The notes beneath the pieces are model-generated. The model searched no databases. It was not told the origin of the DNA and saw only the letters and a program-made list of their open reading frames with translations. Shown here piece after piece: positions 48,781-56,405 of a stretch of 64,000 nucleotides of DNA. How positions within the stretch are numbered: position 1 is the stretch's first letter; each line of letters begins with the position of its first letter. The stretch is taken from contig JAFXSC010000026.1 in NCBI GenBank assembly GCA_017525915.1, positions 1-64,000 of the forward strand, read 5' to 3'. The DNA comes from Ruminococcus sp. (GTDB lineage Bacteria > Bacillota > Clostridia > Oscillospirales > Ruminococcaceae). The translations under genes and the position numbers were made by a program.

Positions 48781-48810
48781 CGGGCGCACGATGTGCGCCC
48801 GTTATTTTTA
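48781..48810. terminator. Terminator between convergent genes
   Basis: CGGGCGCAC (48781-48789) pairs with GTGCGCCCG (48793-48801), followed by TTATTTTTA. Confidence 0.85.
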
Positions 48811-50130
48811 CTGTTCTTCGTCTTTGTCCTGCGGCAGGGGAGTGATTTTCTCAACGCGACAGGCTTCTATCCTGTGGTGGGAAATACCGATGACCTCGAT
48901 GCGGAGACCGTCGGCTTCTATCGCTATCTGTGCGCCCTCACGCGGAACGTCTCCCATTTCGTCAATGACGTATCCGCCGAAGGTATCGTACTTCTCTGCC
49001 GGCAGCGTTATACCGAGCTCCTCGCTGACCTCCGCGACCGTCGTCGAACCGGGTATCAGCCATGTGTTCTCGCCTGTCTTCTCCATCCGCGGCTGAGGAA
49101 TATCGTCCTCGTCGTCGGAAAAATCGCCCACAAGCTGCTCAACAAGGTCAGTTACCGTGATTATGCCGCTCATTCCGCCGTATTCATCGACCACGACCGC
49201 GAAGTGGTCCGCGCCGCTCTGCTTCATCTGCTCGAAAAGCCGGTCAGCCTTCATGGTCTCGTGAACGAAATAAGGCTCACGGACGGCATTTTTCATTATA
49301 TTCTCACGGCTCTTGTCGTCAAGCCGGAAATAGTCCTTCGCGTGGAGGACGCCGATAACGTCGTCAACGCTTCCTCCGCAGACCGGGAACATCGAATGTC
49401 TTGTACGGTGGATAGTCTCCTCCCAGACCGATATATCATCGCTTTCCCACAGCACGGAGACCTCTGTGCGGTGGGTGCAGATCTGTCCTGCCGTCATATC
49501 GTCAAAGGCGAAAACGTTCTTGATTATGCGGTTCTCGTCCTCGTCTATCGTACCCTTTTCTGCACCGGCATCGGACATCATGAGGATCTCCTCCTCGGTG
49601 ACGGCATCTTCCTCTGCGGAGGGGTCAATGCCCATGATACGCAGTATACCGCCGGATATGGCTTCCGTGAGTATGACCGCCGGGGCGGAGAGTATCATGA
49701 CGAGCCGCAGGAAGCCGCTCATCGCAAGGGCTATCTTCTCAGGTGATTTTGCTGCGATGTGCCGCGGTATGAGGTCGCAGAACACAAGTATCAGGAAACA
49801 TTCCGCAAGAGCAGTCGCAAATGTAGCGATAACGCCGGAAAGCTCCTCCGAGAGCCCGGCATCCGAAAGTGCAACGGCTGCTTTCCCTGCAAAGCCGTAA
49901 ACGCCGAAGGCTGCGGCTGTAAGGGAGACCGTCACGGAAGCCGCCTTTGCCGAAGCAAGGAAGCGTGACGGCGAAGCAGTCATGCGCCTGAGTCTTTCAC
50001 CGCGCCTGTTCCCGCCGGAAGCAAGCTTTTCGAGCCGCGGATCGCTGATCGCGACCGCTGCTGTCTGAGCACAGGTTATCGCTGCACCGATAGTGAGAAG
50101 TATTATTTGCAGTAAAAACTGCGTAAGCAT
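48808..50130 (-). CDS. CNNM/CorC-HlyC family membrane protein with CBS pair
   Basis: A 440-residue protein: N-terminal DUF21 membrane domain (about 1-190; several segments including LRLVMILSAPAVILTEAISGG), a CBS pair (about 205-325: MTAGQICTHRTEVSVLWE; ADHFAVVVDEYGGMSGIITVTDLVEQLVGD) and a C-terminal CorC/HlyC domain (about 340-425). Relatives move or sense Mg2+ and other divalent ions. It was called hemolysin C by older annotation, which is misleading. Confidence 0.88.
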   Translation of the reverse strand: MLTQFLLQIILLTIGAAITCAQTAAVAISDPRLEKLASGGNRRGERLRRMTASPSRFLASAKAASVTVSLTAAAFGVYGFAGKAAVALSDAGLSEELSGVIATFATALAECFLILVFCDLIPRHIAAKSPEKIALAMSGFLRLVMILSAPAVILTEAISGGILRIMGIDPSAEEDAVTEEEILMMSDAGAEKGTIDEDENRIIKNVFAFDDMTAGQICTHRTEVSVLWESDDISVWEETIHRTRHSMFPVCGGSVDDVIGVLHAKDYFRLDDKSRENIMKNAVREPYFVHETMKADRLFEQMKQSGADHFAVVVDEYGGMSGIITVTDLVEQLVGDFSDDEDDIPQPRMEKTGENTWLIPGSTTVAEVSEELGITLPAEKYDTFGGYVIDEMGDVPREGAQIAIEADGLRIEVIGISHHRIEACRVEKITPLPQDKDEEQ

Positions 50131-51778: not shown

Positions 51779-51890
51779 GCAATTGGAAAAAAAGTTCCTG
51801 AAATGTAATAATTTTTTTGCTGCCGGAACGCCGTTTTGTAAAAATCGCCGATAATTCCGGCGTTTCCGGACAACATAAAGCCTTTTTGCT

Positions 51891-51919
51891 TGACAAATCC
51901 TGTTTTTAATGGTAATATA
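51891..51919 (+). promoter_or_regulatory. Promoter of the riboswitch operon
   Basis: TTGACA at 51891-51896 and TAATAT at 51914-51919 with a 17-bp spacer; transcription should start just before the riboswitch. Confidence 0.8.
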
Positions 51920-51928
51920 TTGTTAATA

Positions 51929-52030
51929 AAAGGGAGTAGCTTCTTTACGTTATCCGTAAAGTGTCCGTATCGCCATAACCACAGCCCTGAGCTGTCGGAC
52001 GGACAAGGCTCAGGCTTTAGCAAGACTTTT
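51929..52030 (+). promoter_or_regulatory. yybP-ykoY (Mn2+) riboswitch aptamer
   Basis: The 5' end reads AAAAGGGAGTAGC and the 3' end GCAAGACTTTTG, matching the conserved ends of yybP-ykoY leaders (AAAGGGGAGTAGC and CAAGACCTTTG). Between them a helix CTTTACG/CGTAAAG (51944-51962 region) and a second long helix AGCCCTGAGC/GCTCAGGCT can form. The AAAG at the start pairs with CTTT at the end as P1. This class senses Mn2+ and switches gene expression on. It precedes a P-type ATPase operon, as in other bacteria. Confidence 0.85.
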
Positions 52031-52070
52031 GTTGCACGTTTCCGATGCAATGAAAGTCCTTTTTGTTTTT
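52024..52070 (+). terminator. Riboswitch expression platform: intrinsic terminator
   Basis: GACTTTTGTTGCA (52024-52036) pairs with TGCAATGAAAGTC (52046-52058), a continuous 13-bp stem with two G-U pairs and a 9-nt loop, followed by CTTTTTGTTTTTG. The 5' arm overlaps the aptamer's last strand (GACTTT), so Mn2+ binding should prevent the terminator and turn the operon on. Confidence 0.85.
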
Positions 52071-52104
52071 GCTATCCCAAATCATCTTTGAAAGGTAACG
52101 AAAT

Positions 52105-53256
52105 ATGAAAAAAACATCAGCACTTGCACTTTCTGCTGTACTTGCGGCTTCACTCGTCACCGCCTGCGGAAAGAACAGTGACAGCAGCTCGTCAGGCACT
52201 GAAACAACAGCTTCTTCAACGGAAGCAGATGCAGCAAATGCCGCTGAGGAGACCACCGAAGCTTCATCATCGGCTCCCGGGACCACGGAAGCTCAGAGCA
52301 CCGACGGCAATGACAGCCACGGACGTTACGAGGAGTCTTCCTATGCCAATCCGAATGACGACGCCAGCAACGGCGATCTTATGGCAGAGCTTTCAATGAA
52401 GGCTGAAAGTATTCCCCCTGACGAGGACGGCTTCAGGATAAAGGACGGTATCCTCTACGGCTATGACGGCGTGGAGAACGTGCTATATATCCCGGACGGC
52501 GTTACGCGCATAGAGTCGTGGTCGTTCAAGAACGATACCAATATCCGTGCGGTATATATCCCGGCATCGGTAACGAGCATCGGCGCTTTTGTGTTTGACT
52601 GCGCCTCCGCGCTCCAGCACGTCAGCACCGGAAATGGACTTGTATCTATCGGCGACAGTTCATTTTCAAGATGCTCCAGCCTTATGGACGTTAATCTCCC
52701 GGAAACCCTTACCTTCATCGGTGATTCGGCGTTCTGGGCTGACGGAGACCTCACGATACACGCTCCCGAGGGCTGCTATGCCGCAGAATTCGCAGCAAAC
52801 AGCAATGGCGAAATCAAATATTCCAGCTCACCTGCCTATTATGAGCCTGTTGACCTTGCATCAGTTATCCGCTCAAATCAGTATGAGTACGGGGAGTTCA
52901 CAGAGTTTGAGATATCTGCAGATATCACCGGCATCGAGGGCGAGGCTTTCGAGTATTGCAAAAACCTGAAAAGCATCACTGTGCCGTCAAACGTTAAGTA
53001 CATCAACGGCAGTGCCTTTGAATACTGCGACAGCCTTGAAACAGTCCGCATCGAAGAGGGCTGCGAGAGGATCGGCAGCTACGCCTTTTCCCATGTTCCT
53101 AAGCTGAAAGAGGTCTGGCTCCCGGCAAGCCTGAGCAATATCGACAAGAACGCCTTCCAGAATTACAGCGACGGCTGTGTGTTCCACGTTCCGTCAGGCT
53201 CCTACGCCGAGAAATTTATGATAAAGTACAATATGAACTTTGACAATAAAGTCTGA
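52105..53256 (+). CDS. Leucine-rich-repeat (BspA-type) lipoprotein
   Basis: A 383-residue protein: lipobox SLVTAC (Cys16), a long Ser/Thr/Glu linker (about 18-95), then LRR_5/BspA-type repeats (VTRIESWSFKNDTNIRAVYI; VTSIGAFVFDCASALQHVS; LVSIGDSSFSRCSSLMDVNL; CERIGSYAFSHVPKLKEVWL). These are surface-exposed binding modules. It is the first gene behind the Mn2+ riboswitch and 15 bp before the ATPase, so its expression is set by Mn2+. A link of such a protein with metal ions is unexpected. Confidence 0.85.
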   Translation: MKKTSALALSAVLAASLVTACGKNSDSSSSGTETTASSTEADAANAAEETTEASSSAPGTTEAQSTDGNDSHGRYEESSYANPNDDASNGDLMAELSMKAESIPPDEDGFRIKDGILYGYDGVENVLYIPDGVTRIESWSFKNDTNIRAVYIPASVTSIGAFVFDCASALQHVSTGNGLVSIGDSSFSRCSSLMDVNLPETLTFIGDSAFWADGDLTIHAPEGCYAAEFAANSNGEIKYSSSPAYYEPVDLASVIRSNQYEYGEFTEFEISADITGIEGEAFEYCKNLKSITVPSNVKYINGSAFEYCDSLETVRIEEGCERIGSYAFSHVPKLKEVWLPASLSNIDKNAFQNYSDGCVFHVPSGSYAEKFMIKYNMNFDNKV

Positions 53257-53271
53257 TAAAGGAGTTGGATT

Positions 53272-55869
53272 ATGAATTATTTCGATCAGGACGCGGAAAG
53301 CGTCGTAAAGTCTCTCGGCTCTGACCGTGAGAATGGACTTACCGACCAGCAGGTCACAGAAAGCCGTGAAAAATACGGTGTAAACGCCATTGCCGAGGAA
53401 AAGCCCAAGAGCATTCTCAGGGTATTCCTTGAACAGTTTGCCGACCTCCTTGTTGTGATACTCATCATCGCTTCGATAGTTTCCATGGTAAGCGGTGAGC
53501 TCGGAAGCACTATCGTTATCCTCGTCGTTCTCATCATGAATGCCGTTCTCGGTACTCTCCAGCACGTCAAAGCCCAGAAGTCGCTCTCCAGTCTCAAAGC
53601 CATGAGCGCCCCGAACGCAAGAGTCCTCCGTAACGGCGCACAGACCGAGATACCTGCCTCTGAGGTCGTTGTCGGCGATATCCTCCTCATGGAAGCCGGA
53701 AACGTTGCCGCAGCCGACGGACGTCTCCTCGAAGCCGCTTCCTTGCAGGTAAATGAGAGCGCCCTCACCGGTGAATCCCTGAACGTTACCAAGTCCACCG
53801 CTAAAATAGACCAGTCCGAGCTTGCCCTCGGTGACAGGGTGAACATGATCTACTCCGGCTCGAATATCTCCAACGGACGCGGCGTGGCTGTTGTCACCGG
53901 CGTCGGAATGGATACCGAAATAGGCAAGATCGCTTCGCTCATGCAGAACGCCAAGAAAAAGAAAACTCCGCTCCAGGTAAGTCTCGACAAGTTCAGCAAG
54001 GTGCTCTCTATCGCTATCATCGCTATATGTATAGCGGTATTCCTTATGACTTATTTCATCAACGACCAGCCTGCCGTTGATGCCCTCATGTTCGCAGTTG
54101 CGCTTGCAGTTGCGGCTATCCCGGAGGCTCTCAGCTCCATCATAACCATTTCCCTTGCTATCGGCACTCAGAAGATGTCAAGGCAGAAGGCTATCATCAA
54201 GGACCTCAAAGCGGTCGAGGGTCTGGGCTGCGTATCCATTATCTGCTCGGACAAGACCGGTACTCTTACACAAAACCGCATGACAGTCCGCGACCTTGCA
54301 TTCCCCGGTGAAAAGGCAAAGGACGAGCTCCTCCTTGCTATGGCGCTCTGCAATGACGCCGCAAAGGACGGTGAACAGTGGCTCGGCGACCCGACCGAGA
54401 CTGCCCTTTCCGAATACCTCGGAAACGATGAATACCTCCGCATACGCAGCGAAAATCCGCGTATTGACGAGATCCCCTTCGACAGCGACAGAAAGCTCAT
54501 GACTACCGTTCATAATATCGGCGGCGAGCGCACTGCCTATACAAAGGGCGCTATCGACGTTCTTGTCCCGCGTATGGAATACGTCCTCGCTGACAGCGGT
54601 ATCCGTCCCATAACCGAGGAGGACAAGGATAATATCAGAAAGGCTAACCTCACCTATTCCGAAAACGGCATGAGAGTTCTTGCCTTCGCAAAGAAGCTCC
54701 ACACTCCCGATAAGAGCCTTACGCTCGAAGATGAGAGCGGCTACGTCTACATAGGTCTTACCGCTATGACCGACCCGCCGCGTGAGGAGAGCAAGGCCGC
54801 CGTTGCAGAATGTATCTCTGCCGGCATCAAGCCCATTATGATAACCGGTGACCACAAGCTCACGGCTGTCGCTATTGCCAGGGAAATAGGTATCTACAAG
54901 GATGGCGACCTCGCTATGGACGGCAACGAGCTCAACAATATCTCCGATGAGGAACTCTCCGCAAAGCTCGAAAAGATATCCGTTTACGCAAGAGTTTCGC
55001 CTGAGCATAAAATACGCATAGTTGACCTCTGGCAGAAGAAGGACAAGGTAGTCGCCATGACCGGCGACGGCGTAAATGACGCTCCTGCGCTGAAAAAGGC
55101 TGACGTCGGCGTGGCTATGGGTATCACCGGTACCGAGGTATCAAAGGACGCCGCTTCGATGATACTTGCCGACGACAACTTCGCTACTATCGTCAAGGCT
55201 GTTGCAAACGGCAGATGTATCTACAATAACATCAAGAACGCTATAAAGTTCCTGCTTGCCGGAAACGCTGCTGCTATCATAGTCGTGCTCCTCACGACCG
55301 TATTTGACCTGCCGCTGCCATTCATGCCGGTACACCTCCTGTTCATCAACCTCCTCACCGATTCGCTCCCGGCTCTCGCACTCTGTATGGAGCCCATGCA
55401 GCCCGGCATCATGAAAGAAAAGCCGCGTCCGTCCAACGAGTCGATACTCAACAAGGAGAGCGGTCTGTATATCGTTATCCACAGCATTATCATCGCCGCC
55501 TGCGTAATGGCTGCATTCATGATAGGCAAGCAGAGCTGTGACTCCGCCGCAATGGCAAGCACAATGGCTTTTGCTACGCTCTGCCTTGCAAGACTCTTTG
55601 AAGGCTTCGACAGCCGCGGAAAGCACTCCCTCGCAAAGCTCGGCTTCACCACCAACCTCTTTACCGCCGGTGCTTTCCTCATCGGAGCTCTTCTCCTGAC
55701 CAGTGCTCTGCTTATTACTCCCTTCCACGGCTTTATGTCTGTAAGCAACTCCTTCGGCATGACGGACTTCCTCATCGTTATCGGCTTCGCGTTCATTCCC
55801 TTCGCACTTACACAGATCGCAAGAATGGTCAGGGAAGCAGTGTACGCACAGGCTAAGGAACAGCAGTGA
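53272..55869 (+). CDS. P-type cation ATPase (Ca2+/Mn2+-exporting type)
   Basis: An 865-residue P2-type ATPase of full length with ten membrane segments. Key sites: the TGES loop (ALTGES), DKTGTLT with phosphorylated Asp327, TGDGVNDAP (597 on), and a fourth-segment motif PEALSS at 284-289 where SERCA-type pumps have PEGLPA. It sits under a Mn2+ riboswitch, so Mn2+ export (possibly with Ca2+) is likely. In other Firmicutes P-type ATPases under this riboswitch protect from manganese excess. AAGGAG precedes ATG. Confidence 0.9.
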   Translation: MNYFDQDAESVVKSLGSDRENGLTDQQVTESREKYGVNAIAEEKPKSILRVFLEQFADLLVVILIIASIVSMVSGELGSTIVILVVLIMNAVLGTLQHVKAQKSLSSLKAMSAPNARVLRNGAQTEIPASEVVVGDILLMEAGNVAAADGRLLEAASLQVNESALTGESLNVTKSTAKIDQSELALGDRVNMIYSGSNISNGRGVAVVTGVGMDTEIGKIASLMQNAKKKKTPLQVSLDKFSKVLSIAIIAICIAVFLMTYFINDQPAVDALMFAVALAVAAIPEALSSIITISLAIGTQKMSRQKAIIKDLKAVEGLGCVSIICSDKTGTLTQNRMTVRDLAFPGEKAKDELLLAMALCNDAAKDGEQWLGDPTETALSEYLGNDEYLRIRSENPRIDEIPFDSDRKLMTTVHNIGGERTAYTKGAIDVLVPRMEYVLADSGIRPITEEDKDNIRKANLTYSENGMRVLAFAKKLHTPDKSLTLEDESGYVYIGLTAMTDPPREESKAAVAECISAGIKPIMITGDHKLTAVAIAREIGIYKDGDLAMDGNELNNISDEELSAKLEKISVYARVSPEHKIRIVDLWQKKDKVVAMTGDGVNDAPALKKADVGVAMGITGTEVSKDAASMILADDNFATIVKAVANGRCIYNNIKNAIKFLLAGNAAAIIVVLLTTVFDLPLPFMPVHLLFINLLTDSLPALALCMEPMQPGIMKEKPRPSNESILNKESGLYIVIHSIIIAACVMAAFMIGKQSCDSAAMASTMAFATLCLARLFEGFDSRGKHSLAKLGFTTNLFTAGAFLIGALLLTSALLITPFHGFMSVSNSFGMTDFLIVIGFAFIPFALTQIARMVREAVYAQAKEQQ

Positions 55870-56405
55870 GAGCGCTCGTTATGAATTGCAGTCCCGTCAG
55901 GAACGGTGCAACTGCAGAGATAGTAAATATTATCGTACAGCAGCTTTCAAGCCGCTATGAAGTGAAAAGCATCGGCATCGACGACTACTCCTTCGGCTTC
56001 TGCAAAGGCTGCCGGAGCTGCCACAATACTGCAAAGTGCGTTCAGCACGACGGATTTGACCTTGCAGCTGAGGAATTTGAACGTGCGGACATAATAGTCT
56101 GCGTTGCCCCGTCCTACTGGGCGGACGTGCCGGGACAGTTCAAAGCGTTCATCGACAGGTTCACGCCGTGGTGCAATACCCATGAGCCGCACGCTTCTCT
56201 CAGCAGGGGCAAGCGCGGCTATGCGGTCGCCCTGAGAACAGGTCCCTCCATGCCGGAATGCCAGCGCATTATCGGTACTATCGAGCATTTCTACGGCCAC
56301 CTCGAAATCGAATGCTGCGGCTCGCTCGGACTCTGCTCCGTCGAGTACAAAGAAGCGGTCGAACCCAGAAAAGCAGAAATTATCGGATTTTGCAGCAAGA
56401 TATGA
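55866..56405 (+). CDS. Flavodoxin-like NAD(P)H-dependent oxidoreductase
   Basis: A 179-residue protein: RALVMNCSPVRNGATAEIVN (residues 2-21) is the FMN phosphate loop of the iron-sulfur flavoprotein/FMN reductase group, and GFCKGCRSCHNTAKC holds the Cys cluster also seen in the truncated flavodoxin at 3620. GTG 55866 overlaps the ATPase stop (GTGA) with AAGGA upstream, so it is coupled to it. Role in the operon unclear; perhaps redox of a metal or thiol. Confidence 0.85.
   Translation: MRALVMNCSPVRNGATAEIVNIIVQQLSSRYEVKSIGIDDYSFGFCKGCRSCHNTAKCVQHDGFDLAAEEFERADIIVCVAPSYWADVPGQFKAFIDRFTPWCNTHEPHASLSRGKRGYAVALRTGPSMPECQRIIGTIEHFYGHLEIECCGSLGLCSVEYKEAVEPRKAEIIGFCSKI

Follow-up and report, generated by a model that had tools for sequence, protein, structure and literature searches.

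The leader at 51890-52104 of the window, the whole 64,000-nt stretch of a Ruminococcus sp. contig analysed here, is very probably a yybP-ykoY (Mn2+) riboswitch that turns transcription ON, acting by the mechanism proposed below. Judged by sequence and covariation, its identification as a predicted Mn2+ riboswitch with an overlapping intrinsic terminator is confirmed, and its membership of the class suggests that it would bind Mn2+ and allow Mn2+-dependent read-through. The element is thus a well-supported, expected case of a well-studied class with an ordinary mechanism. Through it, Mn2+ probably controls an ATPase operon in a Ruminococcus lineage.

Leader layout, aptamer core and covariation

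On the + strand, 51890-52104 holds a promoter match, an aptamer-like stretch and a terminator, followed by a gene start codon at 52105. The features of the leader and operon are:

51890-51918, + strand: sigma-70 type promoter (TTGACA at 51890-51895, 17-nt spacer, TAATAT at 51913-51918)
51928-52031, + strand: yybP-ykoY (Mn2+) aptamer with a four-way junction (5' AAAAGGGAGUAGC, 3' AGCAAGACUUUU), from the R3 model match and covariation
51928-51932, + strand: 5' strand (AAAAG) of the switch helix P1.1
51932-51940, + strand: GGGAGUAGC, comprising the end of P1.1, loop L1 and the 5' strand of P1.2
51943-51961, + strand: hairpin P2
51963-52004, + strand: helix P3 (P3a and P3b), enclosing L3, with covariation
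51973-51980, + strand: L3, CCAUAACC, in which 51975 is the counterpart of the Mn2+-contacting adenosine
52005-52018, + strand: hairpin P4, the weakest helix
52026-52030, + strand: 3' strand (CUUUU) of P1.1, common to the terminator
52024-52070, + strand: intrinsic terminator (hairpin 52024-52058, U-rich tract 52060-52070)
52105-53256, + strand: BspA-type LRR lipoprotein-like gene, operon gene 1 (PF13306, 1.1e-45; lipoprotein by eye)
53272-55869, + strand: P-type ATPase of the Ca2+/Mn2+ pump kind, with IPEALSSI (PF00122, PF00689, PF00690)
55866-56405, + strand: FMN reductase/flavodoxin-like gene, operon gene 3 (PF03358, 7.8e-16)

A first-pass annotation of this DNA had proposed the TTGACA/TAATAT promoter, which is present; 20 of 23 homologous leaders have TTGACA without a mismatch (the exceptions being L016, L024 and L026). 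The two conserved ends it had recognised are likewise there, as the L1 sequence and the 3' GC(A/G)AGAC at 52020-52026. To carry L. lactis numbering onto the leader we used our own mapping, after parts of PMC9190785 and PMC6754395; G9 and A10 then fall at 51934 and 51935, and A51975 corresponds to A41 of L. lactis and A48 of X. oryzae, the adenosine to which an excerpt of PMC6754395 assigns the Mn2+-contacting role. In L. lactis, Mn2+ contacts the phosphates of G9, U39, C40, U44 and C45 and the N7 of A41 (PMC9190785, in part). The CGYCA motif, including this adenosine, occurs in 22/22 aligned leaders, a count taken from the motif because in L016 and L022 the invariant MAFFT column A48 is occupied by the next A.

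One position of L3 counts against our reading: the window has C where L. lactis has U39. This is common in the genus, with CGCCA in place of the L. lactis CGUCA in 21/27 leaders with an intact L3 (19/22 by motif count, plus L065 and L070 as against L071, L072 and L074 by eye). L3 reads UCA41AU43UC in L. lactis and ACA48U49ACU52 in X. oryzae (PMC6754395, in part). We considered the variant L3 as a new sensor and dropped the idea, as X. oryzae has A at this position and L159, from the Streptococcaceae set, also reads CGCCA; base 39 varies within the known class, so the C gives no reason to propose a new ligand. A pattern scan of named genomes returned 28 CGCCA-type stretches, 17 of them in Ruminococcus or Oscillospiraceae records, and we take the remaining 11 as chance because our covariance model R1 (below) has no match there at E 0.1.

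Thermodynamic folding of the aptamer also counts against the assignment, as seen by energy models that are blind to tertiary contacts. Folded alone, 51928-52034 adopts a different fold (z -0.95, with 32/200 shuffles as stable), and in 51928-52031 GGGAGU pairs with ACUUUU in place of P1.1. We do not claim a CCUGA/UCAGG pairing between the P3b and P4 loops, which by eye is not kept in relatives.

Covariation supports P1-P4, with P1 near-invariant and P4 weak. In the alignment of 22 leaders (21 distinct), two-sided changes that keep pairing fill 53 cells, against 19.2 +/- 3.4 in shuffles, and the covariation score is 0.268 against 0.159. Two of the five measures hardly exceed the shuffles in this alignment and count against the fold, namely pair types (35 vs 34.4; 238 of 500) and pairs with a two-sided change (14 vs 10.6; 8 of 500). 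Two-sided cells number 514 in the 59-match alignment (150 +/- 12 in shuffles) and 367 in the 39-sequence R3 alignment (113 +/- 8), both of which, unlike the 22-leader alignment, were fitted to the structure. When partners are slid by one column, pairing in these two alignments falls from 94.6 or 92.9% to 37-43%. P1.1 and P1.2 hardly vary and tell little (P1.1 is paired in 100% of cells among the 22 leaders, and three of its five pairs never vary), while P2 and P3 carry the signal. Every pair of P2 shows two-sided change, with 68% of cells paired among the 22 leaders and 90% among the 59 matches; the outer pair of P4 is absent from 6/21 rows of the 22-leader alignment and 27/57 of the 59-match alignment.

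Covariance models and class membership

The first-pass annotation had offered a match to the Rfam model RF00080 as the check on its assignment, and by this check the leader formally fails, as nothing in the window matches at the gathering cut-off. At a lax threshold on 261 nt, the leader scores 17 bits (E 0.0064) against a cut-off of 45, which is a database threshold rather than a biological feature. In its own genome the leader ranks first among four sub-threshold places at E 10, with no match under stricter filters, and RF00080 rises above the cut-off in 0/120 genus genomes. The same model gives the E. coli K-12 mntP locus 41.6 bits, also below the cut-off, and finds no match at the alx locus at E 1. 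Four leaders with the L. lactis-type core score 46 (which passes), 43.3, 40.6 and 37.6 bits, and the other eight of our 12 Streptococcaceae loci have no match at E 0.1. Non-genus loci found with R1 behave similarly, with no gathering match in 20/20 scanned and none at E 0.1 in nine further ones. On three control lists, RF00080 matches 9, 5 and 9 of 14 well-known control genomes and is above the cut-off in 2. Because E. coli mntP, alx and three of the four L. lactis-type leaders fall below it, we regard the cut-off as uninformative; once neither E. coli leader had passed at gathering, we no longer used Rfam alone as arbiter. Many such Mn2+ riboswitches, published members included, score under the current RF00080 cut-off, and regulons can therefore be missed.

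We therefore rely on covariance models of our own. A DNA search had matched the leader in 27/120 genus genomes; 23 loci, the window included, have both conserved ends and four more (L028-L031) lack them. R1 was built from the alignment of 22 leaders, with a structure written for the window leader after the known class, and matches 28/125 genus genomes. The remaining 97/125, many of them incomplete, have no match at E 0.01, which counts against our reading. Among genomes of the window's bacterial class, R1 matches 51/391 including the window's own, and at E 0.1 it finds nothing in two MntP loci (L035 and L036) that only R3 matched. R2, a second model built from 59 matches, matched 26/39 Streptococcaceae genomes at E 0.1; L. 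lactis and Streptococcus belong to this family, from which leaders of this sort have been published.

The third model, R3, comprises 39 sequences with no row from the window's genus and none from E. coli. The scored window sequence is absent from it, and its alignment leans to the genus fold because its sequences came from models seeded by genus leaders. R3 gives the leader 66.9 bits in the 64-kb window (E 2e-15; next best E 1.9), and in the whole of its own genome the leader is the sole match at E 1 (E 9.3e-14). It matches 29/30 other loci tried, the exception being the MntP locus of the window's own genome (L150). R3 also matches E. coli mntP (37.5 bits, E 3e-8) and alx (25 bits, E 6e-5), placed just upstream of the genes, as well as the same-genus MntP leaders L035 (48.6 bits) and L036 (51.5 bits). 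The Mn2+ response of the E. coli mntP and alx leaders is published (PMC9603457, in part), so the leader has homology in sequence and fold to proven members. The yybP-ykoY assignment of the first-pass annotation is thus upheld by the R3 match, the conserved L1 and L3 adenosine, and covariation.

These results bear on two simpler readings. A chance likeness of the two conserved ends would fit the fact that mainly these ends were noticed at first, and that the window-wide Rfam gathering scan is silent here, but with the R3 E value of 2e-15 and R1 matches in 28/125 genus genomes it is scarcely credible. We also think it very improbable that the leader is a plain attenuator, with a real terminator below an upstream part that senses no metal. 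The RF00080 score below the cut-off would suit such an attenuator, as would a genus leader, L027, that has terminator and ATPase and lacks P2, P3 and L3; the covariation, the R3 score, the conservation of L1 and the L3 adenosine, and the ability of R3 to match E. coli mntP and alx all argue for an aptamer instead.

The L027 leader (= L073, 1463-1520) is an oddity in its own right, retaining P1, a P4-like hairpin, the terminator and the ATPase. Either the riboswitch may have no sensor, or the assembly may be in error (the genome is rated 64% complete).

The operon, partner genes and other features of the window

The ATPase that the first-pass annotation named as the operon's partner gene does fit the class, but it is the second gene, with the LRR lipoprotein-like gene first. 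The LRR and ATPase genes are 15 nt apart, and there is a 4-nt overlap between the ATPase stop and the start of the FMN reductase gene. Of the 28 loci from the genus, 23 have an ATPase as first gene, four LRR and one OAD_beta (L071); LRR first and ATPase second is the arrangement in 4/28 (the window, L142, L143 and L144). A CNNM/CorC-type membrane protein gene lies upstream of the operon and divergent from it (48808-50130, - strand), with two - strand genes between.

The ATPase has P-type domains of the Ca2+ pump kind, as expected of the YoaB/MgtA type, and is probably a Mn2+ (or Mn2+/Ca2+) exporter. It carries IPEALSSI, as does each of the 22 genus ATPases that are first genes and readable at this site (L062 is truncated). 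Behind non-genus elements the motif is not universal (IPEALSSI in 4/10 ATPases, IPEGL in 6/10), which counts against our reading. Behind the four L. lactis-type leaders, the ATPase fragments share 43-47% identity with the window's ATPase across 442-486 residues and read IPEALSSI or IPEALSSV; this common motif may be an indirect pointer to Mn2+ transport. In C. difficile, a single Mn2+ riboswitch precedes an ATPase orthologous to that of L. lactis, with Mn2+ efflux as its likely role (PMC11477304, in part). Our literature search found no paper joining riboswitch, manganese, Ruminococcus and P-type ATPase. The window's genome also carries the MntP gene of L150, without such a leader by R3, and this counts against our reading as well.

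A rival reading keeps the RNA fold but gives it another main ligand, either Ca2+ or a different transition metal, and makes the ATPase a Ca2+ pump. In its favour, the solved structures nearest to the ATPase belong to Ca2+-ATPases, with the Calcium-transporting ATPase lmo0841 first, and the top three NCBIfam models for it all describe Ca2+ types, though none reaches its cut-off. The IPEGL found in 6/10 non-genus ATPases behind the element is common among Ca2+ pumps. The Streptococcus pneumoniae mgtA leader, moreover, responds to both Mn2+ and Ca2+ (PMC9495176 and PMC11434433, each in part). We nevertheless consider another main ligand unlikely, as the Mn2+-specificity adenosine is present in 22/22 aligned leaders, the window's IPEALSSI matches the four L. 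lactis-type ATPases and not the IPEGLPAI of eight Streptococcus-type ones, and two genus leaders of the class precede MntP, named as a putative manganese efflux pump. Mn2+ remains our preferred ligand.

Beyond the window, partner genes for Mn2+ export or cation transport are the rule. All 57/57 stored R1 loci precede ion-transport genes, four of them with an LRR lipoprotein gene between. The first genes of 59 loci, counting ORFs of 140 aa or longer, comprise 33 P-type ATPases, 10 OAD_beta, 8 Na/Ca exchangers, 4 LRR, 2 CitMHS and 2 MntP, and those of the 29 stored non-genus R1 loci 10 ATPases, 9 OAD_beta, 8 Na/Ca exchangers and 2 CitMHS/ArsB-like permeases. These partner genes are concrete candidates for Mn2+ homeostasis.

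Genes resembling OadB, the beta subunit of a sodium-pumping decarboxylase, lie behind the element in 11 loci of the window's bacterial class (L071, L076, L083, L085, L088, L093, L096, L099, L101, L103 and L147); in L147, OadB directly follows a Na/Ca exchanger gene. One such lone OadB aligns to 6iva, a solved beta chain of oxaloacetate decarboxylase (E 4e-99). Pfam found no alpha subunit downstream of OadB among ten proteins from L132, L134-L137, L139, L141 and L147, and inspection by eye of ORFs of 110 aa or longer showed none in the remaining downstream stretches, although those of L133 and L138 are too short to judge. With this ORF length, a small gamma subunit may have escaped notice. Our search, with the founding Mn2+ papers and the mgtA paper outside it, found no paper joining a Mn2+ riboswitch with oxaloacetate decarboxylase, and the term 'sodium ion-translocating decarboxylase' is absent from the papers among the matches listed. 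We tentatively suggest, as a possibility well short of even odds, that the lone OadB proteins are an unrecognised Mn2+ exporter family or Mn2+-induced pumps, and that in this clade a surface LRR lipoprotein has been recruited to the Mn2+ regulon. In L136 a YjbE/TerC-type gene lies just upstream, and in L135 another membrane protein gene has a second element in front of it.

Near the start of the window, 6-123 holds a tRNA-Tyr-like gene whose anticodon loop has 37 bases replacing the CTG of intact relatives; ARAGORN does not report a gene there. The same insertion occurs at G000:C24:2621-2746 and in L168, L169, L170 and L171 (79% identical), and L169 has an intact tRNA-Tyr nearby. At E 0.001, both tRNA-Tyr matches in the window's own genome carry the insert and no intact one was found. 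The insert may be a spliced intervening sequence, the gene may be dead, or a divergent tRNA-Tyr may have been missed. In the window's own genome, the insert core was found in the two tRNA-Tyr-like genes and nowhere else. In L186, from another genus genome, the core occurs twice close together (1501-1521 and 1657-1677) in a stretch without tRNA genes, and it may therefore be a small mobile repeat.

Proposed switching and comparison with known systems

The terminator is a hairpin of 13 pairs, including G-U, between the 5' arm GACTTTTGTTGCA (52024-52036) and the 3' arm TGCAATGAAAGTC (52046-52058), followed by CTTTTTGTTTTT. Its fold has an energy of -16.6 kcal/mol (z -5.05), and 0/200 shuffles are as stable. 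The overlap between terminator and last aptamer strand claimed by the first-pass annotation is correct, coordinates included: CUUUU lies inside the terminator's 5' arm, and the aptamer and terminator folds therefore exclude each other. This expression platform, exclusive with P1.1, is conserved. A terminator that re-uses the last aptamer strand is found in 56/58 elements (all except L051 and L092); in base-composition shuffles the figure is 15.8%. Folding of the free 145-nt leader gives -44.2 with the terminator and -33.2 with the aptamer forced, a gap of about 11 kcal/mol; the terminator is thus energetically preferred without ligand, which suggests that the default state is OFF.

This default preference, together with a layout like that of L. 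lactis, suggests that the switch would be ON at high Mn2+, as the first-pass annotation had also proposed. In L. lactis, Mn2+ stabilises P1.1 and thereby blocks the terminator (PMC11087558, in part), and the element is called an ON-switch (PMC9190785, in part), although one review calls the class OFF switches (PMC11477304, in part). We follow the first two over the review and adopt the ON direction; most likely, the metal-pump operon would be made when Mn2+ is high.

By analogy with the class, we propose that RNA polymerase would start shortly before 51928. At low Mn2+, the weak P1.1 (AAAAG/CUUUU) would fail to hold, its 3' strand would be captured by the 13-bp terminator stem, and transcription would end at the U tract near 52070. 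At high Mn2+, the ion would be bound between L1 and L3, with adenosine 51975 giving the specific N7 contact. Binding would dock both legs, hold P1.1 and block the terminator, so that the LRR lipoprotein-like, P-type ATPase and FMN reductase genes would be transcribed. The ATPase, as a presumed exporter, would then lower cytosolic Mn2+, and perhaps Ca2+ too.

The L. lactis yoaB riboswitch shares with the window the four-way junction, the GGGAGUAGC L1, the L3 adenosine, a P1.1 strand common to the terminator, and an ATPase with IPEALSS (mechanism in PMC6754395, PMC9190785 and PMC11087558, each in part). It differs in L3 (UCAAUUC, against CCAUAACC in the window) and in P1.1, which has two G-C pairs against one in the window's AAAAG/CUUUU, and in the window an LRR gene stands between switch and pump. 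The four leaders that we compared as L. lactis-type are so called from their common L3 (CGUCAAUUC in L156) and from the family to which the centre genome belongs. Like the window's leader, the riboswitches of E. coli mntP and alx are matched by R3, but they control other exporter families. The MntP leaders L035 and L036, from two other genus genomes, are also matched by R3 (RF00080 28 and 24.4 bits), but have a different L3 and a different partner gene (PF02659), and are missed by R1.

The Streptococcus mgtA Mn2+/Ca2+ riboswitch shares the GGGAGUAGC core, a terminator and a P-type ATPase partner with the window, and is matched by R2. The ATPase fragments of this type share 43-48% identity with the window's ATPase (in L158, the stretch printed differs from the leader itself, and the ATPase fragment lies further downstream). 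Unlike the window, this type has another P1.1 sequence, and its ATPases carry IPEGLPAI in 8/8 fragments. The Rfam family SSRC10 (RF02617) matches eight of the 12 loci (L157-L164), four of them above the family cut-off, and these leaders are R2-positive and stand before P-type ATPase genes. The available part of the SSRC10 source paper places it before a putative calcium transporter gene, with yybP absent from that part (PMC3675131). SSRC10 (Streptococcus sRNA 10) looks like the Mn2+ riboswitch rather than a separate sRNA.
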